64,000 nt of DNA, taken from Zetaproteobacteria bacterium CG_4_9_14_3_um_filter_49_83 (GTDB lineage Bacteria > Pseudomonadota > Zetaproteobacteria > Mariprofundales > Mariprofundaceae). Each line of letters starts with the position of its first letter. The first letter of the stretch is position 1. Below the pieces are notes generated by a model. The model made no database searches, had not been told where the DNA came from, and saw only the letters and a program-made list of their open reading frames with translations. This document shows, piece by piece, positions 95-10,613 of the stretch. The position numbers and the translations under genes are program-made. Location of the stretch: NCBI GenBank assembly GCA_002791545.1, contig PFXG01000055.1, positions 1-64,000 on the forward strand. Reading direction: 5' to 3'.

Positions 95-914
95 TCAGTA
101 ATCAAAGAAACTGGATACGGCGCGTTCCAGTTTTTTAATCTCATCTTCTTGCAGGTAGTTTTTTCCAATCGTGGTATCAGATTTTAAGATGCGACCATCA
201 GGGGCATGTTTAAATGTTTGAATGCCCATCAAGGGCTTGTTGGCATCAGCATGATGGTAGACAATCTCTGCTGCTGTTTGTCCTGTGATGGCATAGTGAA
301 ACTTATCTTGAACATGGGGCATAAAATAGCTGGGTTGTCTCCGATTTTGGATCATAATCAATACTGCATTCAGCAAAAATATCGGTAATTTGCTGGTAAA
401 TGCGCCGTTCGCTGGCACGGATAGAGCGAATGCGCTCCAATAGTTCTCTAAAGTAATCCTTGCCAAAATAACGTCCGTTTTTCAGACGCTCATCATCCAT
501 GGTAAAACCTTTGATGATGTATTCTTTAATCAGCTTGGTTGCCCAGATACGAAACTGGGTTGCTTGGGTAGAGTTGACGCGATAACCCACGGATATGACC
601 GCATCAAGATTGTAGTATTCCACTTTGCGGGTCACATTGCGATTACCCTCTTTTTGAACTGTTTCCAAAATGGAAATAGTTGCCGGACGCTCCAGCTCTC
701 CATCTGAATAAATATTATCCAGATGTTTTGAAATCGCGGGCACACCCACAGCAAACAGCTCTGCCATACGCTTCTGTGTAAGCCATAACGTTTCATTGCT
801 AAGCAACACTTCAACTTTAACCTCACTGTTGGGAGCGGTGTAAAGCAGAAAGTCAGTCACTTCATCCTGCACGCTTAATAAAGGATATCTGCTTTTTGTG
901 CCATCCTTATTCAT
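95..914 (-). pseudogene. RhuM family protein, frameshifted and 3'-truncated
   Basis: The first 195 or so codons (914 down to about 320) read as a RhuM-family protein: a short N-terminal part, a helix-turn-helix-like stretch (LTQKRMAELFAV, with the SKHLDNI helix), and the family block VGYRVNSTQATQFRIWA. Near 313-320 the frame breaks: the first frame ends in APCSR-stop, while the family sequence resumes in another frame at VQDKFHYAITG and runs to SSFFDY-stop at 95. RhuM proteins usually continue well past this point, so the 3' end also looks lost. RhuM genes commonly sit inside type I restriction loci, and this one follows HsdM remnants with an ATGA overlap to a tiny reading frame. RhuM's biochemical role is not established. 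A sequencing error could explain the frameshift but not the decay of the whole locus. Confidence 0.75.
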
Positions 915-1012
915 GGCATCATTCCTTCAACCATTTTTCCCGCCTGGGAAACATGGTCGCAAGCCACCATGTCGTGCGCTTCCACGAAATGGTAAAGCAT
1001 TGGATTATTCAT
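911..1012 (-). CDS. 33-residue small reading frame between hsdM remnant and rhuM
   Basis: This short frame starts at an ATG overlapping the stop of the HsdM remnant and ends in a TGA overlapping the rhuM ATG, so it is translationally coupled on both sides. It begins MNNPMLYHFVEAHDMVACDH and ends KMVEGMMP. I do not recognise it. It could be a real small protein of the locus or the leftover of a deleted gene such as hsdS. Confidence 0.3.
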   Translation of the reverse strand: MNNPMLYHFVEAHDMVACDHVSQAGKMVEGMMP

Positions 1013-1688
1013 GTTCAAGCTCCTTCAGATATCCTTCCATTTCGACTTCTAGATTGGCTAACTGGTCTTTGAGCTGTTCGCGCTCTTTCAGTACAACTGC
1101 AAGATCGATCTCTTCCTCTTCCTCAAAGGTGTCTACATAGCGTGGAATATTGAGGTTATAATCGTTCTCCTTGAGAGCTTCCGGCGTTGCCAGGTAGGCG
1201 TATTTATCGACTGATTCGCGTGCCTGACAGGTCTCAATGATTTTGCTCAGATGCTCTTCGGTAAGGAAGTTCTGATTCTTACCATTCTTGTATTCGCGGC
1301 TGGCATCGATGAAGAGGACGTTCTCATCCTTCTTATTCTTTCTGAACACCAGAATTGCAGCCGGACTGCCTGTGCCATAAAAGAGCTTCTCAGGCAGGCC
1401 AATGACAGCATCAAGCAGGTTTCCCTCAATTAGTTTCTGGCGGATCTTTCCTTCAGCCGATCCACGGAAGAGCACGCCATGAGGCACGACTACGCCCATA
1501 CGGCCAGAGCCGGGCTTCATGCTTTCAATCATGTGCAGGACAAACGCATAATCTGCCTTCGCCCTCAAGCAGCTTCGGATTACGGAGGGTATCACCCCAT
1601 TCAATACGGTGATTGTCCTCTCCATGCAGAAACATGTTCATCTTTGCGAGCGCCAAGGTGGAGCCGATAGCCTCCTGCCCGAACAGTG
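1005..1688 (-). pseudogene. hsdM: Type I restriction methylase HsdM, internally deleted fragment
   Basis: Two frames encode parts of a type I DNA methyltransferase subunit. The upstream part (about 1688 to 1560) reads ALFGQEAIGSTLALAKMNMFLHG and ends near KLLEGEGRL. The next family segment is in another frame from about 1556 (KADYAFVLHMIES, GRMGVVVPHGVLFRG, IGLPEKLFYGTGSPAAIL, NIPRYVDTFEEEE) to the stop at 1005. In intact HsdM the stretch between these carries the catalytic NPPF-type motif IV. It is missing here, so methylation activity is very unlikely. The N-terminal half of HsdM is also absent, since the reading frame runs directly into nucleotidyltransferase sequence upstream. This is a decayed type I system. 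Confidence 0.8.
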
Positions 1689-2927: not shown

Positions 2928-3012
2928 GGCACATCAGTGGCTCGAAAGCGGGCCTGAGTTGACAGGGTAAAAATACGACATATTGTCCCCAACCGTTCCC
3001 AGGGAGGGGTCA

Positions 3013-4275
3013 ATGCCAGAGTCAGATGCCACATACGATGTACTTTGTGAGGTCAGAAAATGTCTGACTCAAAAAGAAATAGCTGACAGCCTAGGTGTCG
3101 ATACAAGAACCGTAAAACGCTGGGAAGCAAAAGAATGCTCCCCTCCTCCTTACGCTACTACTGCACTGCAGCGGCTCCTTCCATTCAGAAAGGATGAGAA
3201 AAAAAGAAGAAAAACAGATTTTACTTTCATTGATCTGTTTGCGGGAATCGGCGGAATCAGGCTTGGTTTTGAAGCAGCCGGAGGCCGGTGCATCTACACC
3301 AATGAATGGAACAAATATGCAGCCCAGACCTATCTCAGAAACTTCGGAAACGATCACCCGGTTGAAGGCGATATTACTGAAGTAGACCCGGAAAGCATTC
3401 CTGACCATGATGTATTGCTGGCAGGCTTTCCATGCCAGCCTTTTTCAATCGCAGGAGTATCAAAGAAGAACTCTCTGGGAAAATCCCATGGATTTGCCTG
3501 TGAAGCACAGGGCACGCTGTTTTTTGACACGGCAAATATCATTCGCCACAAACAACCTTCAGCATTTCTTCTGGAAAACGTAAAGAATCTGATGAGTCAC
3601 GACAAAGGTAATACATTCAAGGTCATCAAAAAAACACTGGTGGAAGAACTTGGCTACACTATTTTCCCTCTTGTCATAGATGCAAAAGGCTTTGTCCCCC
3701 AGCATCGTGAGAGGATTTATATCGTGGGGTTCAAAGAAAAAGTCCCGTTTTCCTGGGACTCTTTCAAAAAACCAGATCCTGCATCAAAACGAATGAAATC
3801 CATTTTGCATCCTGAGAACGGTAGCGAAACTAGTGATTTCGATTTCATGAAAGGCTACATCACCGGAAAAGATGGCCTCGTAAATGACAAGTATACTTTA
3901 AGTGACAAGCTGTGGGCTTATTTGCAGGGCTATGCAGCCAAGCATAAGGCAAAAGGCAATGGATTTGGGTTTGGTCTGGTTCGCCCGGAAGACACCGCCA
4001 GAACCTTATCAGCCCGCTACTATAAAGACGGTTCAGAAATTCTGGTGAGCCGTGGCGAAGGCAATAACCCTCGCAGGCTAACACCAAGGGAATGTGCAAG
4101 ACTGATGGGATATCCTGATGATTACATTATCCCTGTTTCAGACACACAGGCGTATAAGCAGTTTGGAAATTCAGTTGCAGTGCCAGTCATTAAGGAAGTC
4201 GCCCGAATTATGAAACCCTTTATCCTTCAACTGATCAAAGAAAGAAAAGAGGAAAAATTAAAAACGGCAGCCTGA
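3013..4275 (+). CDS. dcm: DNA (cytosine-5-)-methyltransferase, Dcm/EcoRII type
   Basis: Transfers methyl groups from S-adenosylmethionine to cytosine C5 in a specific site. With an EcoRII-type nuclease next door the expected site is CCWGG. The N-terminus carries a helix-turn-helix (LTQKEIADSLGVDTRTVKRW), as in the Dcm/EcoRII group. The ordered C5 motifs are all present: DLFAGIGGIRLGFEAAGG (I), GFPCQPFSIAG with the catalytic Cys (IV), LLENVKNL (VI), QHRERIYIVGF (VIII), a variable target-recognition stretch around residues 250-350, and YKQFGNSVAVPV (X). I took the ATG at 3013, preceded by GGGAGGGG, over an upstream TTG. The stop overlaps the vsr start. The N-terminal HTH may autoregulate the operon. 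Confidence 0.95.
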   Translation: MPESDATYDVLCEVRKCLTQKEIADSLGVDTRTVKRWEAKECSPPPYATTALQRLLPFRKDEKKRRKTDFTFIDLFAGIGGIRLGFEAAGGRCIYTNEWNKYAAQTYLRNFGNDHPVEGDITEVDPESIPDHDVLLAGFPCQPFSIAGVSKKNSLGKSHGFACEAQGTLFFDTANIIRHKQPSAFLLENVKNLMSHDKGNTFKVIKKTLVEELGYTIFPLVIDAKGFVPQHRERIYIVGFKEKVPFSWDSFKKPDPASKRMKSILHPENGSETSDFDFMKGYITGKDGLVNDKYTLSDKLWAYLQGYAAKHKAKGNGFGFGLVRPEDTARTLSARYYKDGSEILVSRGEGNNPRRLTPRECARLMGYPDDYIIPVSDTQAYKQFGNSVAVPVIKEVARIMKPFILQLIKERKEEKLKTAA

Positions 4276-4733
4276 TGACTGATGTACACAGTAAAGCAAC
4301 ACGCAGCAAAAATATGGCTGCGGTTCGCAATAAAGATACCAAGTCGGAATTACTGGTTCGCAAAGCGCTGCACCGGCTGGGATTCAGATACCGTTTGCAT
4401 GATCGGAAGCTTCCAGGAAAACCAGACCTTGTGCTTCCTAAGTATAATGCCGTCATTTTCGTACACGGTTGTTTCTGGCATCAGCATGATTGCCACCTGT
4501 TCAAATGGCCTTCAACGCGTGAGGAGTTCTGGCGAGAAAAAATCGAAGGTAACAGGACCAGAGATATTGAATCCATAAAGCAACTACAATTAATGGGCTG
4601 GCGAGTGCTTACTATTTGGGAGTGCTCCCTGAAAGGAAAGTCACGCTTGCCAATTGATGATCTGTTATCAATAGTGAGTAACTGGATAGTAGAGGGATCA
4701 GACGAACAGGAGGTTCGTGGAGAGAACAAATGA
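4275..4733 (+). CDS. vsr: Very short patch repair endonuclease Vsr
   Basis: A 152-residue protein matching Vsr in full length. Vsr nicks 5' of the T in T:G mismatches that arise when 5-methylcytosine deaminates within the Dcm site, starting very short patch repair. Recognisable features are the N-terminal TRSKNMAAVRNKDTKSE block, the GFRYRLHDRKLPGKPDLV segment with the catalytic Asp, and the zinc/active-site block FVHGCFWHQHDC. The ATG overlaps the dcm stop (TGATGA), and its own stop overlaps the start of the nuclease gene, so dcm, vsr and the nuclease are translationally coupled. Confidence 0.95.
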   Translation: MTDVHSKATRSKNMAAVRNKDTKSELLVRKALHRLGFRYRLHDRKLPGKPDLVLPKYNAVIFVHGCFWHQHDCHLFKWPSTREEFWREKIEGNRTRDIESIKQLQLMGWRVLTIWECSLKGKSRLPIDDLLSIVSNWIVEGSDEQEVRGENK

Positions 4734-5929
4734 ATGATGCAGTCGATGAATGGCTCGATACAGTTTCAGGGAATGACCGAGTTTGGTTTGCTAAACGATT
4801 GTCCGCAAACGACTCCGGAGCAACAGCCAGCCATCAGGCTGGCATCTATATTCCCAAGCCCGTGTTGTGGACAATCTTCCCCTCTATGAAGATAGGCAGC
4901 AATCCGGATGCGTGGTTTTCAGCAGAGGTCATGCCTTATGGAGAGAGCCGGAGTCTGCGGGCAATTTGGTACAATGAAAAAAGCCGCAATGAAAGCAGGA
5001 TCACCCAATGGAACAGGCCTAACCGAATCCTTGAACCGGATCAGACGGGCGCATTAATCTTATTCGCTTTTCAAAAAAGGACATCAGAAGAAGATGCCGA
5101 ACATGTATCTGCCTGGATCTGTCAGTCGGAAACAGAAGAAGAGATAATCGAAAATCGGGTGGGCGCCGTTGAGCCTGGAGAAGGAACCCTCCATTACCCT
5201 GCCGGTTTTATTGATGACAAATCATCGCTTATCCAACCCATCATGCGTAAAGACTGCACACTTGCCGAAAGCGACATTCCTGATGCATGGGTTGCCAATT
5301 TCCCATCTGGCCAGGAGCTGATAGAGCATGCGTTATCGTTAATGCCAAAAACCGGGACCGGGCCGGATGCCAGACTTCTATCGCGGCGCGAATGCGAGAC
5401 AGCCCTGTTTTACTCTGTAGAGCGTTCTTTTGTCCTTCCGAAAATAATAAAAGGTTTTTCGAGTGTTGACGCATTCGTCGATTTAGCCAACTCGGTAACA
5501 AATCGCCGCAAAAGCCGTGCGGGAAGATCTTTTGAATTGCATTTGAAAGGCATTTTCCAGGAAGAGGCACTTTCATTTTCCCATGGAGAAGTTTCAGAGG
5601 GGAATAAAAAACCGGATTTTTTATTCCCCTCCATTGAGGCCTACCGTGATGCAGCCTGGCCTGAAAACAAGCTGCGCATGCTTGCAGCCAAAACCACATG
5701 TAAAGACCGCTGGAGACAAATTCTGAACGAGGCTAACCGCATTGCCCCCAAGCATCTTGTCACCCTGCAACAGGGGGTCTCGGAAAATCAGTTCCGTGAG
5801 ATGGGAGAAGCGGGGGTGGTTCTGGTTGTCCCGAAAAGATTACACTCCAGCTATCCCGAAGTAGTTCGCCCAAACCTGCAATCACTGGAGCAATTTATTC
5901 AAGAAACAAAAAGCATCAGCGAAGCATGA
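4730..5929 (+). CDS. Type II restriction endonuclease, EcoRII family
   Basis: A 399-residue protein with the two-part EcoRII architecture: an N-terminal effector (B3-like DNA-binding) region of about 170 residues and a C-terminal PD-(D/E)XK nuclease. The catalytic region shows KKPDFLFPS (Asp near 296) and MLAAKTTCKDRWRQIL (Lys near 321), the spacing seen in EcoRII. The length is close to EcoRII itself (about 400 residues). EcoRII is a type IIE enzyme that needs two CCWGG copies. Here it completes a dcm-vsr-nuclease operon and overlaps the vsr stop by 4 bases. The cognate methylase upstream protects host DNA. Site specificity is inferred from the family, not read from the sequence. Confidence 0.9.
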   Translation: MNDAVDEWLDTVSGNDRVWFAKRLSANDSGATASHQAGIYIPKPVLWTIFPSMKIGSNPDAWFSAEVMPYGESRSLRAIWYNEKSRNESRITQWNRPNRILEPDQTGALILFAFQKRTSEEDAEHVSAWICQSETEEEIIENRVGAVEPGEGTLHYPAGFIDDKSSLIQPIMRKDCTLAESDIPDAWVANFPSGQELIEHALSLMPKTGTGPDARLLSRRECETALFYSVERSFVLPKIIKGFSSVDAFVDLANSVTNRRKSRAGRSFELHLKGIFQEEALSFSHGEVSEGNKKPDFLFPSIEAYRDAAWPENKLRMLAAKTTCKDRWRQILNEANRIAPKHLVTLQQGVSENQFREMGEAGVVLVVPKRLHSSYPEVVRPNLQSLEQFIQETKSISEA

Positions 5930-5980: not shown

Positions 5981-7042
5981 TTATGCTAATTCTTCTGCAA
6001 TTTTTTTAACATCAAAGTCAGGTTGTCCCTGCCTAGCGTAATAAGCGGAGAACCGTGCCAACAAATCTTTAATAAATGGAGATGCCACTTGCGCAGACGG
6101 GGCGTCAAACTCGGAATCAATCTTTTCTTTGGGAAAGGCATTTACCCATCGAAAATTCACCACCCCGCCTTGAAAGAAAGATGTTTCAGGTAGCCAGTGA
6201 TAATAGTCTGTTTCATTATTCTTTAGAACCTTCTCTATCCGAGATTTCTTCTTCGATAGATTTGTAATTCCTACAAGAGCAGACTCTTTTACCACATCAA
6301 ATTTCTCTATTCCGCAAATCAAGATTCGGTCAGTTTTACATTTACCATCTGCTCTTAGAACCAAGTCACATGGAGGCGATAAAACAATAGAAAATCCATT
6401 TCCATCTTTATATTTCAGAATGCTTCCTGTTCGTAGCTCCGTTGCCATAGGTGGTGAGACGTACATTTCCTGAGGAAACGCATGACTCTCTCCTTCGAGC
6501 AATTCTTGAATATGGCTTACAACATGGCGCAAAAGCCCATTCTCAGTTTCAGCGACTTTCGCATGGTCCACCCAAGAGTTTATGTGTGGGATAATATTAT
6601 CCCAAAATATTTTCCCCATTGCTTCTTCTATTTTTCCGCGACCGCCCATAATTTTTGTGAGGCCAGTGGAATAAATACCTAATAAATACTCTAAAGCGGC
6701 ATCCATCCCTTGATCTCTCGTAAAAACTTGAACACATGCATTCAGATCAGAATCTACTTCCTGCGGTGTTCCTGTAAGTACTGCCAATGGAATTCTATAA
6801 GAGGAGTGAACTTTTCGAATCACATCATTACCCTTCTCTTCATCCGAATTGTCTAATTTTAAATCAACTATTGCCGCATCGAATGAGCCATTGAGTTTAC
6901 TTAACGCCTCCTCAAGGGAGGAGGCGTACTCACAATCCATCGGCATGTTTTTTTCGCGCATTATCCGAGCAATTGTTGGCTTATAATTATTTTCGACCTC
7001 GTTTAAGTCATCTTCAACGATCAGTAATTTGAAATTGCTCAT
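5981..7042 (-). CDS. Response receiver protein with unknown C-terminal effector domain, paired with dual-GHKL kinase
   Basis: A 353-residue protein. The first 125 residues form a receiver domain: LLIVEDD with acidic residues 10-12, the likely phosphoacceptor Asp60 in AAIVDLKL, and LAVLTGTP. The usual final Lys-Pro is replaced (FTRDQG). The remaining 220 residues have no DNA-binding helix-turn-helix. They contain a SPPCDLVL block followed by conserved-looking beta-rich sequence (KTDRILICGIEKFDVV) and a C-terminal helical end (FIKDLLARFSAYYARQG). I do not recognise this domain; I recall similar receivers described for predicted conflict systems. The start overlaps the kinase stop (ATGA), so the two are co-expressed. 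The gene is convergent with the EcoRII-type nuclease 51 bases away and appears AT-richer than the core genes. Confidence 0.75.
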   Translation of the reverse strand: MSNFKLLIVEDDLNEVENNYKPTIARIMREKNMPMDCEYASSLEEALSKLNGSFDAAIVDLKLDNSDEEKGNDVIRKVHSSYRIPLAVLTGTPQEVDSDLNACVQVFTRDQGMDAALEYLLGIYSTGLTKIMGGRGKIEEAMGKIFWDNIIPHINSWVDHAKVAETENGLLRHVVSHIQELLEGESHAFPQEMYVSPPMATELRTGSILKYKDGNGFSIVLSPPCDLVLRADGKCKTDRILICGIEKFDVVKESALVGITNLSKKKSRIEKVLKNNETDYYHWLPETSFFQGGVVNFRWVNAFPKEKIDSEFDAPSAQVASPFIKDLLARFSAYYARQGQPDFDVKKIAEELA

Positions 7043-9204
7043 TCCTCATCCCCTTCTTCAGGCTGCATCCTGAAATATGCTCCAGTTTCCGATGAAAATG
7101 CCTTCAGCATCAAACCATTTCTTGCTGCAGCTTCCCCCGCAATAGCGAGGCCTAACCCCGTCCCTTCCGGCTTGGTTGAGAACTCAGGATCGAAAATAAC
7201 GCCATTGTTTATAAGAGACTCTTCAATTCCTGGACCACTATCCCGATAGTCCATATGAATCAATTTCCCATCCTCTGATTCGATCTGAATATCAATCCAT
7301 TTTTCCTGAATATCCTTGTGATCCATCCAGAATAAACTGTTATCTATCAGATTTGTAAGGATGATATAAATATCCTGATTCCAACCGAACATAGTCACCA
7401 ACTCATTATCAGCAGCAATATTTACAGTTACCTTTGATTCTTTAATTTCGTGATCGAAAACTGATACGCTCCCCCGGATCTCATGCAGCAGGTCAAAATC
7501 TTTTCTGTTTGCTCTACGACCTGAAGCCAATGGATCAATACGTTTAAAGAGTGAAACGAATATCTGAGAGTTGTCAGACATCCCGCGCATGATTGTTTTC
7601 ATTTCATCCAATGCTTCCCTATCATTTTTCTCAGCAAGAACACCTGCCCAATATCCAAAATTCTTGATTTGATTCGTAAAGAACCCGAGGGGTTTACGGC
7701 CTTCGTGAAGAACCACCTTAACAATTTTTCCTAAAGTGGCTTGCCCTTGGTATATGGCCACTGTCTGTTTGATATCTTCAGAAAGTTTATTGGACTCTTT
7801 TTCCTTCTCATCCAATAACGCCAGAACTTGATTCGATGTATTTTTATCTACTCCGCCCTTGTTAAGGGTCTTTCGTACACTCTCCTTGATCTCCTCGAAG
7901 GAGAACAAGCGCTCAAACTCTCGTTCCACCTTCAGGGTTTTGCGGCTAAGCCCGGCTTTCTTTCTATATTCGAATCGTTTGGTTTCTAGACTGGAAATTA
8001 TCTCTCCAGTAATTGCCCTTAATCTTTTGTAAGCACCATTATCTTTAAGGCCATCACGGGCACTCTTTTCTTCTAATCCGGAAAGCTCTTCAGATTGTAT
8101 CTGTACATATCCTATGACCTGATTAGAGCCAATTCGCATTGAAGGATTCTGAACTCTCTGTTCATTTAACTTAAGCCAATCAAAGTCAGCATCTCCCAAT
8201 GGCCTGATTCTGAATCCATTTCTGTAGACACCGATGCCATTAGATCTGTCCAACAACCTTCTTGCTTCCAGCTTTCCGACATAATTTCCGTAAGGATCAG
8301 TCAATCCGCGTTTAATAATGGCATCAATTGCATCGGGTTCGCGATCATAAACACGTATATCAAGTTTAAGGATTCCACACCCTGTGGATTGATCTAAATC
8401 AAACTCCATTGACTCATCCAATGTGTTTTTTGCTTTCTGATTGGAAAATGTAAGCTTTCCTGTGCCATCAGAATTAATTGAGCCACTAATCCTGTAATCA
8501 TATAAATCAAAAATTGGGAAAGGTTCGATTTCCTTATCTTGATTATATTCTTTATCGTCACCTTCCCAGAAATTATCGCACTTAAGGTGGATCACAAATG
8601 ACTGTGTATTCTCAGAATGGTACTCAACCGGGGAGATAAGTTTCTTCAGTTCATATTCAAGAGTATCCAGCTCCCCATCCTGCCAAAGCTCAATAACTTC
8701 GGAAGGAGCCGTCATTGTAAGCTTGGTTCCATTTGATGCTGCAGTAGGTCTGGTTTCAACCAATATCTCCACATCATCCAAATACTCTGCTTTCTCAAAT
8801 AAGTCCCATTGAACAACAACAGTGGTTTCATTGCCTTCAGCTACCGTTTCCATCGAAAGGTCTGCTCCTAACAATGCTGCAGCATACCGTCCGATGCCTT
8901 TACGGCCCTGCATTGTCCTGCCTCCGGGACTAGCCTTTCGCTTCAATTTGTCATCTGTGGAAGGAACGAGCCATTTATTAATAACAGTATCCCTTGTCAT
9001 GCCATGACCAGAGTCTTCAACAGTAATGATCAAACGATCTCTTTTCTCGGGAACAGAAAATGAAATTGTCACATCAGGAGAGTCCGCATCGTATGCGTTT
9101 TTCACCAGTTCGATAACCGCAGCATAATGGTCCTGAATCAGGTCACGTCCTATGGTAAGAAGGTGTCGGCCTGCTGGTCTTATCCGGTGTGAATCATCTT
9201 CCAT
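7039..9204 (-). CDS. Histidine kinase-like protein with two GHKL ATPase domains (Hsp90/MORC-like plus kinase)
   Basis: A 721-residue soluble protein without membrane segments. The N-terminal 200 or so residues are an Hsp90/MutL/MORC-like ATPase: ELVKNAYDAD (Asn36), VEDSGHGM (62-69) and GRKGIGRYAA (about 97-106). A middle region of unknown fold follows, then a coiled region. The C-terminus is a true kinase core: H-box VLHEGRKPLG with His about 500, N-box ILTNLIDNSL, G1 YRDSGPGIEE and G2 GTGLGLAIAG. So it carries two nucleotide-binding domains and an intact phosphoacceptor His. The ATG at 9204 has GGGAG upstream; a GTG at 9213 is the alternative. It is coupled to the receiver gene. Its position between a restriction operon and an Abi gene suggests phage defence, which is inference. 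Confidence 0.8.
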   Translation of the reverse strand: MEDDSHRIRPAGRHLLTIGRDLIQDHYAAVIELVKNAYDADSPDVTISFSVPEKRDRLIITVEDSGHGMTRDTVINKWLVPSTDDKLKRKASPGGRTMQGRKGIGRYAAALLGADLSMETVAEGNETTVVVQWDLFEKAEYLDDVEILVETRPTAASNGTKLTMTAPSEVIELWQDGELDTLEYELKKLISPVEYHSENTQSFVIHLKCDNFWEGDDKEYNQDKEIEPFPIFDLYDYRISGSINSDGTGKLTFSNQKAKNTLDESMEFDLDQSTGCGILKLDIRVYDREPDAIDAIIKRGLTDPYGNYVGKLEARRLLDRSNGIGVYRNGFRIRPLGDADFDWLKLNEQRVQNPSMRIGSNQVIGYVQIQSEELSGLEEKSARDGLKDNGAYKRLRAITGEIISSLETKRFEYRKKAGLSRKTLKVEREFERLFSFEEIKESVRKTLNKGGVDKNTSNQVLALLDEKEKESNKLSEDIKQTVAIYQGQATLGKIVKVVLHEGRKPLGFFTNQIKNFGYWAGVLAEKNDREALDEMKTIMRGMSDNSQIFVSLFKRIDPLASGRRANRKDFDLLHEIRGSVSVFDHEIKESKVTVNIAADNELVTMFGWNQDIYIILTNLIDNSLFWMDHKDIQEKWIDIQIESEDGKLIHMDYRDSGPGIEESLINNGVIFDPEFSTKPEGTGLGLAIAGEAAARNGLMLKAFSSETGAYFRMQPEEGDEE

Positions 9205-9423
9205 CAAATACACTCCCTACACAATTGGGGGTAAACCTTGTTTCGCGCATTTTTACCCCTCCATAATCAAAAAGCTCTCCAAAGAGTGCTGCAATCAAAC
9301 ATAATTGGCAAATGCCTCGATCTCATTCCGGGCAGGCATGATTAAATGATTTTTTACGAATACAAATGGCTGCACGACTTACTGTAATGGGGTCAAACTT
9401 AACATTTGCACATTCTTCCTTGG

Positions 9424-9451
9424 TTAAAGGGGACGCTTCCCTTTTTTTAGG
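9424..9451 (+). repeat. Direct repeat copy 1 with hairpin (AAAGGG..CCCTTT)
   Basis: The sequence TTAAAGGGGACGCTTCCC followed by seven T and AGG occurs here and again at 9581-9606. It can fold as AAAGGG/CCCTTT with a short loop and ends in a T-run on the plus strand. It lies just downstream of the partial second copy of the Abi 3' end, as the other copy lies downstream of the intact gene. It may be a terminator, or a short mobile-type repeat carried with the duplication. Confidence 0.6.
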
Positions 9452-9461
9452 CTATTGATGC

Positions 9462-9578
9462 TCACGTTTGACCTCCAGCAGCAGGAACATCCCAGAAAGG
9501 ATCGTCCTGCCAGTCGGGCAGAAAACCCATCCGTGCTTGTGGCACATCGGTATGCTTTGCCATTAGGGCAATAAGCCG
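9462..9578 (-). pseudogene. Remnant 3' end of a second Abi_2 gene
   Basis: Read on the minus strand, this stretch encodes 38 residues (RLIALMAKHTDVPQARMGF ... DDPFWDVPAAGGQT) followed by TGA. They match the last 38 residues of the intact Abi_2 protein next to it at 28 positions by my count. There is no start codon or upstream coding sequence: the copy begins abruptly at the repeat at 9581. It is therefore the surviving tail of a paralogous, diverged abi gene, not an assembly artefact of an identical repeat. Confidence 0.75.
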
Positions 9579-9580
9579 CG

Positions 9581-9606
9581 TTAAAGGGGACGCTTCCCTT
9601 TTTAGG
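9581..9606 (+). repeat. Direct repeat copy 2 with hairpin (AAAGGG..CCCTTT)
   Basis: Second copy of the 9424-9451 element (TTAAAGGGGACGCTTCCC, T-run, AGG), shorter by two T. It marks the junction between the truncated Abi tail and the 3' end of the intact abi gene. Recombination between such repeats could have deleted the body of a second abi gene. Confidence 0.6.
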
Positions 9607-9616
9607 TTGTTAGCGC

Positions 9617-10561
9617 TCATGTTTGCCCTCCCGCAACGGGAACTTCCCAGAACGGATCATGCTGCCAGTCGGAAGGAAATCCCATCTGCGCTTGTGGTAC
9701 ATCGGCATGTCTGGTCATCAGCGCAAGCAGTCGCGCTTTCCAGTTTGAGTACGGATTAATCTTCAGCATCAGACACTGAACCATGCATAGACAGGTATAC
9801 AGTTTCTGGCGATTCCCTACATTATGGGCCGCCCATGCGATACGAGAAATGTGCGGGAGTTCGGGGTGGTAGATCAGTTTGCGATTCCACAGGCGACCAT
9901 GATGTGCACAGGTGTTTCGCAAAAGACATACCGGCTTGAACCATGAACGGAACAAGGCCACCGGGATGCCGAATTTCCCGGCGATACGGTAACGCGCATC
10001 TTTCACCAGTTGATTGCCCGCATCCATGTTCAGAAAAATGCGCTCCAGCTCTCCGACCGTCATTACCTCTACCATCTTCCAGCTTGGAGGCAGCGCCAGA
10101 TAGTTTTCGCGGTGATGCTTCATAAACTCTTCCTGAGAGTGGCGACAAATTTTCTTGATACGCGCTATTTCATCCACATGCGAAAACCTGTCACTCTCCC
10201 TGAACAGGCTGGCATCGGCATACCAGCCGGGGCCGGCGGCGATTGAAAACGCATAGGCAATGGCAGCGCGAATGGCGACTTCGATACGCTCGATTGCATC
10301 AAGCACCAGTAAGCGAAGTTCGCGGTCAAAGGTATACAGGTTGAGCATGTCGTCAAAACTGACGCCGGGGCGATAGCGATGGTCGGCAGAGTCATCCACC
10401 TGCAAGGCTCTGGCATAAATACTCAGGCGATAGTAGCTGATATAGCTCAGATAATGCCTTGCACGATCACGGTCCGGTACAGCCATGCCTCGCCGGACGA
10501 ACAGATCAATCTGCTCATCAATGCCAAGGGCCGGTTTGCTGTATGACTGTAATTCAGGCAT
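9617..10561 (-). CDS. Abortive infection protein, Abi_2 family (AbiD/AbiF-like)
   Basis: A 314-residue protein of the Abi_2 family, HEPN-like proteins linked to abortive phage infection and thought to cleave RNA. Family hallmarks are the N-terminal SKPALGIDEQIDLFVRRGM, YLSYISYYRLSIYARAL, the YTFDRELRLLVLDAIERIEVA block, and the C-terminal LLRNTCAHHGRLWNR, which contains the HEPN RX4H motif (Arg about 215, His about 220). I chose the ATG at 10561. The TTG at 10576 lies inside the loop-distal arm of a terminator hairpin. No ribosome-binding site precedes the ATG, because the terminator T-run abuts it, so translation may depend on read-through or on the upstream RNA. A diverged copy of its last 38 codons lies just downstream. 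Confidence 0.85.
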   Translation of the reverse strand: MPELQSYSKPALGIDEQIDLFVRRGMAVPDRDRARHYLSYISYYRLSIYARALQVDDSADHRYRPGVSFDDMLNLYTFDRELRLLVLDAIERIEVAIRAAIAYAFSIAAGPGWYADASLFRESDRFSHVDEIARIKKICRHSQEEFMKHHRENYLALPPSWKMVEVMTVGELERIFLNMDAGNQLVKDARYRIAGKFGIPVALFRSWFKPVCLLRNTCAHHGRLWNRKLIYHPELPHISRIAWAAHNVGNRQKLYTCLCMVQCLMLKINPYSNWKARLLALMTRHADVPQAQMGFPSDWQHDPFWEVPVAGGQT

Positions 10562-10613
10562 AAAAAAACCCGCCAAAAATGCGCTTCAGTGAGAGGCGAG
10601 GCGGGTGTTGATA
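10562..10613 (-). ncRNA. Putative Abi-associated small RNA ending in a terminator at the abi start codon
   Basis: On the minus strand a short transcript would start near 10613 (GGGGTATCAACACC...) and end in the hairpin ACCCGCC (10600-10606) / GGCGGGT (10568-10574), followed by seven T that run directly into the abi ATG. A well-spaced promoter lies just upstream. The stem loop of about 25 bases contains CTCACTGAAGCGC. The layout (promoter, about 50-base RNA, terminator, toxin-like gene) resembles RNA-antitoxin systems, and I recall small RNAs being reported with AbiF-type genes. The RNA itself is inferred, not observed. Confidence 0.6.
10568..10606 (-). terminator. Rho-independent terminator overlapping the abi 5' end
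   Basis: A 7-bp GC-rich stem (ACCCGCC/GGCGGGT) with a 25-base loop and a T-run at 10562-10568 on the minus strand. It sits before the abi coding region, not after a gene, so it would separate a leader RNA from the abi mRNA. Confidence 0.65.

Follow-up and report, generated by a model that had tools for sequence, protein, structure and literature searches.

A dual-GHKL histidine kinase and a receiver with a conserved P-x-C-D domain as candidate partners of DNA methyltransferases in a zetaproteobacterium

What is the role of a soluble histidine kinase that carries an ATPase at each end and is coupled to a receiver protein lacking a DNA-binding domain, when the pair lies between a restriction-modification operon and an abortive-infection gene? 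We examined this question for the two genes at positions 5981–9204 in a window of 64,000 nucleotides from Zetaproteobacteria bacterium CG_4_9_14_3_um_filter_49_83 (assembly GCA_002791545.1, contig PFXG01000055.1, positions 1 to 64,000). Relatives of the pair are accompanied almost constantly by DNA methyltransferases across bacteria and archaea, and the pair therefore probably serves in a defence system that tells self from non-self DNA, as the component that is switched by phosphate. More specifically, we give about even chances to the proposal that it forms the sensor and effector of a surveillance module that depends on a DNA methyltransferase, a phosphorelay-gated relative of restriction-modification.

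The anatomy of the pair is well supported. The kinase gene (7039–9204, minus strand) encodes 721 amino acids from the ATG at 9204; an alternative GTG start at 9213 would give 724, and the ATG agrees better with the starts of homologues. Residue numbers of the kinase refer here to the 724-residue form, in which His503 and Asn39 correspond to His500 and Asn36 of an earlier sequence-only reading of this DNA. That reading described a soluble protein with an Hsp90/MORC-like ATPase at the front and a histidine kinase core at the back, and the searches bear out both assignments. The N-terminal GHKL ATPase (HATPase_c_3; residues 31–142, 8788–9123) matched PF13589 with an E-value of 1.4e-19, and the C-terminal kinase ATPase (HATPase_c; residues 614–716, 7066–7374) matched PF02518 with an E-value of 9e-19. 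An AlphaFold model built on an alignment of relatives (predicted local distance difference test score, pLDDT, 82.9) was compared with the Protein Data Bank (PDB) using Foldseek. Behind the GHKL domain lies a transducer region (approximately residues 143–415, 7969–8787), and together they make up an SMCHD1/Hsp90/MORC3-like ATPase module within the first ~450 residues (SMCHD1 6mw7, E 1.2e-12 over 457 columns; Hsp90 8ffv; MORC3 5ix2, E 5.8e-10); this is the GHKL plus S5-type transducer arrangement of MORC and paraMORC ATPases. The last ~240 residues resemble the histidine kinase HK853 (E 8.2e-14), with dimerization and histidine phosphotransfer (DHp) helices at about residues 440–560 (7534–7896) and the candidate phospho-acceptor His503 in the motif LHEGRKPL (7707–7705). 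The domain order is thus HATPase_c_3, DHp with His503-Glu504, and HATPase_c. The catalytic residues of both ATPases are intact: Glu35, Asn39, Asp67-x-Gly69 and Gly103-x2-Gly106-x-Gly108 in the N-terminal domain, as well as His503, Asn621/625 and Gly684/686/688 in the kinase core, were invariant in 36 homologues.

The receiver gene (5981–7042, minus strand; 353 amino acids) is coupled to the kinase gene by the ATGA overlap of stop and start codons at 7042–7039 that had been noticed from the sequence. The AlphaFold model of the receiver, also built on an alignment of relatives (pLDDT 92.5), shows a CheY-like receiver (REC) fold at its front (residues 1–125, 6668–7042), and Foldseek and a PDB profile search returned REC domains only. 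The window protein itself had no Pfam match, and PF00072 recognized the domain in 34 of 51 receiver relatives. The switch residues are conserved in the homologues: the phospho-acceptor Asp60 (6865–6863), Thr/Ser90 and Lys/Arg109 in 69 of 69 and Asp11 in 68 of 69. No helix-turn-helix or other recognized DNA-binding domain was detected by Pfam in the window protein or the 51 relatives, as the sequence-only reading had stated.

The remainder of the receiver contains an unnamed effector domain (residues 186–345, 6008–6487) with the pattern T-P-x-C-D ... R-x-G-x-P, in which Cys225 (6370–6368) was present in 69 of 69 homologues and Pro223 and Gly339 each in 68; Asp226, Arg337 and Pro341 were also strongly conserved. 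No Pfam family covered this domain in the 51 relatives. When it was searched alone against PHROGs, the sole family matching several members was the unnamed phrog_4575. The PADLOC model PDC-M60 matched the N-terminal part of the receiver only and weakly (E 0.0027; 18 of 47 relatives, best 1e-5), and did not match the kinase. Profile comparison with 13 sequences of the PemK family, set against six profiles as controls, was not significant and did not support a PemK/MazF identity of the effector domain, which is kept below as a rival reading.

Is such a pair new? A computational study in 2021 (Bellieny-Rabelo) described soluble HATPase_c_3 + HEF_HK + HATPase_c kinases beside Response_reg_2 proteins (91.6% linked) in restriction-modification neighborhoods rich in C5 cytosine methyltransferases (C5), Vsr and EcoRII-C; its authors proposed descent of these kinases from paraMORCs and speculated on a regulatory role (PMC8011034). 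The present pair shares the kinase architecture, the adjoining receiver and these neighbors. Six HEF_HK kinases were matched by our kinase hidden Markov model (HMM; E 2e-43 to 7e-59), and the receiver C-terminal domain, called novel in the sequence-only reading, aligned with the C-termini of PF19192 proteins (hhalign probability 95.9, E 5.5e-9) including the same Cys-Asp motif, in a region outside the published definition of the system. The domain thus has published homologues but belongs to no Pfam family. The proteins differ in size, at ~720 residues here versus ~1000 for the kinase and 353 versus 570–817 for the receiver. PF19191 (HEF_HK) did not match the window kinase (E<1), the 36 kinase relatives (E<0.05) or any protein of the genome, and PF19192 (Response_reg_2) did not match the window receiver, the 51 receiver relatives or the genome; as a positive control, 7 of 7 genomes with PF19192 also matched PF19191. 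The pair could therefore not be filed under either model; the HMM matches and aligned C-termini nevertheless support its homology to that family and indicate that it represents a Pfam-invisible sister branch sharing the effector domain. The general kind has been known since 2021, which the sequence-only reading had missed, and is experimentally uncharacterized as far as the literature searched shows; the cassette form reported below is new.

To trace the distribution of the pair, 84,980 species genomes were scanned with the kinase profile, which gave at least 569 relatives; the best 79 loci are spread over many bacterial phyla and archaea. A scan of genomes with the single receiver sequence gave no match. 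The receiver gene directly followed the kinase gene in all 31 of the closest loci. A C5 gene lay near the pair in 27 of these 31 and within three genes in 26, mostly immediately upstream of the kinase gene with an overlap of 0–16 bases, and a Vsr gene often followed the receiver gene. Housekeeping operons were not the default surroundings: a C5 or N6-adenine methyltransferase (N6) was located three or fewer genes away in 57 of the 64 genome loci with enough flank. The recurring defence neighbor is thus the DNA methyltransferase, which the sequence-only reading had overlooked; the abortive-infection gene was not among the recurring neighbors visible. Genomes of 41 relatives contained about one C5 gene each, which corresponds to a chance expectation of roughly 0.01 C5 per 20 kb. 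Defence islands are richer in C5 genes than this estimate, and the strict operon arrangement is consequently the better argument.

A compact C5-kinase-receiver(-Vsr) cassette, found in many phyla and without a recurring restriction enzyme, is the new form. Among 79 cassette-neighbor proteins from ~18 loci, no restriction enzyme family recurred and the commonest Pfam families occurred in three proteins; no helicase recurred beside the cassette either. In its minimal form (L204, L205) the cassette consists of three genes, C5, kinase and receiver, flanked by chromosomal genes that seem unrelated to it, and has neither Vsr nor a restriction enzyme. With no recurring restriction enzyme, only the kinase and receiver are constant enough to be candidates for the half of the system that does not methylate. 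The methyltransferase beside the kinase was an L061-like, EcoRII-like or other C5, or an N6, and this exchange of types favors dependence on modification as such. The receiver effector type followed the methyltransferase type: the P-x-C-D motif was present in 70 of 80 receivers with C5 as the nearest methyltransferase and in 0 of 10 with N6 (Fisher p 3e-8, relatedness ignored; the chance frequency of the motif in unrelated proteins of comparable length is 18%). This correspondence argues for joint action of receiver and methyltransferase. The invariant P-x-C-D motif in the unnamed C-terminal domain, seen with C5 but not with N6 partners, is newly found here.

In regards to the N6 variant, the methyltransferase adjoined the dual-GHKL kinase in eleven loci, mostly directly upstream (L014, L016, L020, L144, L151, L154, L162, L165, L167, L169, and L176). 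The N6-partnered receivers that were read are short (209–228 amino acids) and without the P-x-C-D domain; the gene order continues with an MBL-fold hydrolase (L014) or an HNH protein (L016).

Does the pair in the window follow this pattern? In the kinase tree it falls in a 15-row clade (Shimodaira–Hasegawa-like approximate likelihood ratio test 99); the 11 other members for which a C5 was identified all have the clade-typical, non-EcoRII type. The nearby C5 of the window is 26% identical to the C5s preceding the closest kinase relatives and 47–54% identical to the EcoRII-linked C5s of L015, L084, L088, and L089, and no C5 typical of the clade was found elsewhere in the genome (assembly 99.4% complete). 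Pairs of this kind have an EcoRII-type C5 next to them in these four loci and also in L070, and the kinase tree shows at least five changes of label. The convergent order of kinase-receiver and EcoRII-Vsr-C5 genes is repeated in Duganella (L088), and the two groups are co-directional in L015, L084, and L089. On this tree, a kinase from the C5-cassette clade has probably changed its partner and now stands beside an EcoRII-type methyltransferase. Alternatively, the clade-typical partner may have been lost and the pair may lie beside EcoRII by chance; the same or co-directional orders in the four loci favor the change of partner.

A mechanism for the surveillance module may be proposed as follows. 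The methyltransferase would mark self DNA, and the MORC/SMCHD1-like half of the kinase would serve as a clamp, driven by ATP, that takes hold of DNA that is incoming, incorrectly methylated or damaged. Closure of the clamp with ATP would bring the second GHKL domain onto His503 and cause autophosphorylation, the phosphate would pass from His503 to Asp60 of the receiver, and phosphorylation of Asp60 would free or dimerize the P-x-C-D domain, which would then act on nucleic acid or shut the cell down. In the window, where the clade-typical C5 would have been lost, the C5-Vsr-EcoRII operon may supply the self mark. This mechanism fits the absence of a dedicated restriction enzyme from the minimal cassettes. 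The sequence-only reading had likewise proposed a phosphorelay-controlled anti-phage module; the anatomy agrees with it, comprising a phosphorelay-type pair, an ATPase of the DNA- or protein-remodeling type and a non-HTH effector domain, and the ligand, the transfer of phosphate, the action of the effector and the anti-phage role are inferred. A further proposal, which we hold tentatively as one possibility, is that C5, MORC-type kinase and P-x-C-D receiver form a self-sufficient restriction-modification analogue free of a restriction enzyme, in which a His-Asp phosphorelay couples recognition to attack and P-x-C-D represents an undescribed effector for C5-marked DNA.

Several observations weigh against a methyltransferase-dependent module. 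The effector domain has no recognized nuclease motif and no convincing Foldseek match, and the motif counts for C5 and N6 partners ignore relatedness among loci. The EcoRII operon of the window is complete and convergent, and the pair may thus be its independent neighbor. Five long-flank loci (L092, L093, L094, L117, and L135) as well as L008 had no methyltransferase nearby, and the linkage is accordingly not absolute, or the enzyme is encoded elsewhere in those loci. No experiment on a pair of this kind was found in the literature searched. The pair could instead be a regulatory two-component system that senses the state of DNA or nucleotides and governs how strongly the linked restriction-modification genes are expressed or how active they are. 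Most two-component systems have regulatory roles, the linkage to such genes is seen both in the published set (PMC8011034) and in the present loci, and the EcoRII operon opposite the pair has to be kept under control; however, the receiver has no helix-turn-helix or other known DNA-binding domain, and in L204 and L205 methyltransferase, kinase and receiver are all there is, which leaves little to regulate. We regard this explanation as rather unlikely.

An independent abortive-infection module is improbable; in it, phosphorylation upon phage sensing would arm the receiver C-terminus as an RNase or translation toxin of the PemK/MazF kind, and the methyltransferase would only help to set the trigger. 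Foldseek against viral models gave two PemK-like proteins outside the REC matches (E 0.012, probability 0.99; E 0.099, probability 0.91), and in our own reading the order of strands and helices in the receiver model resembles MazF, but the Arg of the MazF R-P motif has no evident counterpart, and profile-profile comparison with PemK members gave probabilities of ~1–3%, no better than one control family. More improbable still is that the pair lost its own methyltransferase and is a passenger, a decaying orphan that shares a defence island with an EcoRII system to which it is unrelated. The genome indeed has no clade-typical C5, the relative L008 likewise has none nearby, and the adjacent restriction-modification remnants are broken; yet neither gene is truncated and every catalytic residue is in place, and the repeated occurrence of EcoRII-type C5s beside such pairs speaks against this reading.

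The surveillance module can be compared with known systems. Detocs is a two-component phage defence system in which, as here, a histidine kinase acts with a receiver that carries a fused effector output instead of a helix-turn-helix; unlike the present pair, it has a tetratricopeptide repeat sensor and a nucleosidase effector and is not known to include a methyltransferase. Detocs models matched none of the window proteins. BbrUII/HgiDII restriction enzymes (NF050001) share the N-terminal GHKL domain, which matched kinase residues 21–168 (E 1.1e-15), but the score of 57 bits is far below the cut-off of 550, and the rest of the enzyme is not common to the kinase. The MORC/paraMORC ATPases of restriction-modification operons have the same N-terminal GHKL and S5-type module with cytosine methyltransferases and Vsr nearby, but paraMORC1–5 as described lack a histidine kinase core and a receiver partner (PMC2292703). 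VcSduA, a paraMORC3-type Shedu protein with demonstrated phage defence, also joins a GHKL module to an output domain, which is a fused PD-(D/E)xK nuclease there and a histidine kinase with a separate receiver here (PMC12137116).

The flanks of the pair agree with the sequence-only reading. On the plus strand lie an EcoRII/Dcm-type C5 with an N-terminal helix-turn-helix (2983–4275; PF00145, E 5.5e-89), a Vsr mismatch endonuclease (4275–4733; PF03852, E 1.4e-34) and an EcoRII restriction endonuclease (4730–5929; PF09019 and PF09217) that converges on the receiver gene. An AbiD/Abi_2 gene upstream of the kinase (9617–10576, minus strand; PF07751, E 4.8e-50; PADLOC AbiD) is counted as a neighbor. 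The AT-richness noticed earlier was confirmed, with a GC content of 0.41 at 6–9 kb versus 0.50–0.55 beyond 10 kb of the window. A promoter and terminator scan found promoter-like sites no commoner than in shuffled sequence. CCWGG occurred 84 times in the window, fewer than the 113.5 expected from dinucleotides; a single site falls within 5981–10576 (kinase, receiver and AbiD) versus several in the adjacent EcoRII operon, which may merely reflect AT-richness. Toward the window start, a RhuM-family gene (95–914, minus strand; PF13310, PADLOC PDC-S05) is apparently split into the overlapping frames 303–914 and 95–466, which suggests a frameshift or an assembly error, and an HsdM fragment of a type I methyltransferase (1005–1625, minus strand; profile positions 159–310 only) is apparently the remnant of a decayed type I restriction-modification system.

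Mobile and unusual copies were also observed. Phage records gave partial, distant matches to the kinase only and none to the receiver, and relatives were carried on prophage-like IMG/VR contigs. The kinase-receiver pair was present on 41 conjugative Campylobacter plasmids of 50–75 kb (L010, L011 and 39 further); it is convergent with dcm in L010 and L011, and the kinase is annotated as two pieces on plasmids of some West Bank isolates. An archaeal contig (Cenarchaeum; L130, 9734–21988) has four consecutive dual-GHKL kinase genes within 12 kb. A protein family of ~927 amino acids (annotated as a Z1 domain in L012) accompanies the kinase in L012, L092, L095, L110, L111, L122, L127, L132, and L134, and many of these loci share further genes, resembling the MutL-Z1-AIPR type of restriction-modification operon. 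Apparently broken copies still lie beside C5 genes: in Streptococcus cristatus both the kinase and the receiver are split, and the Actinobacillus kinase is truncated to 280 amino acids (L131, L096).

In eukaryotes, MORC/SMCHD1-type ATPases are linked to methylated chromatin. The three-gene cassettes of L204 and L205 are small enough for direct tests, and Cys225, Asp60, His503 and Glu35 are invariant. A surveillance module of the kind proposed would unite three subjects that are usually studied apart, namely the marking of self by cytosine methylation, MORC/SMCHD1-type ATPases and two-component phosphorelays. It would decouple attack from the recognition of foreign DNA, in a way that is reversible and amplifies the signal.

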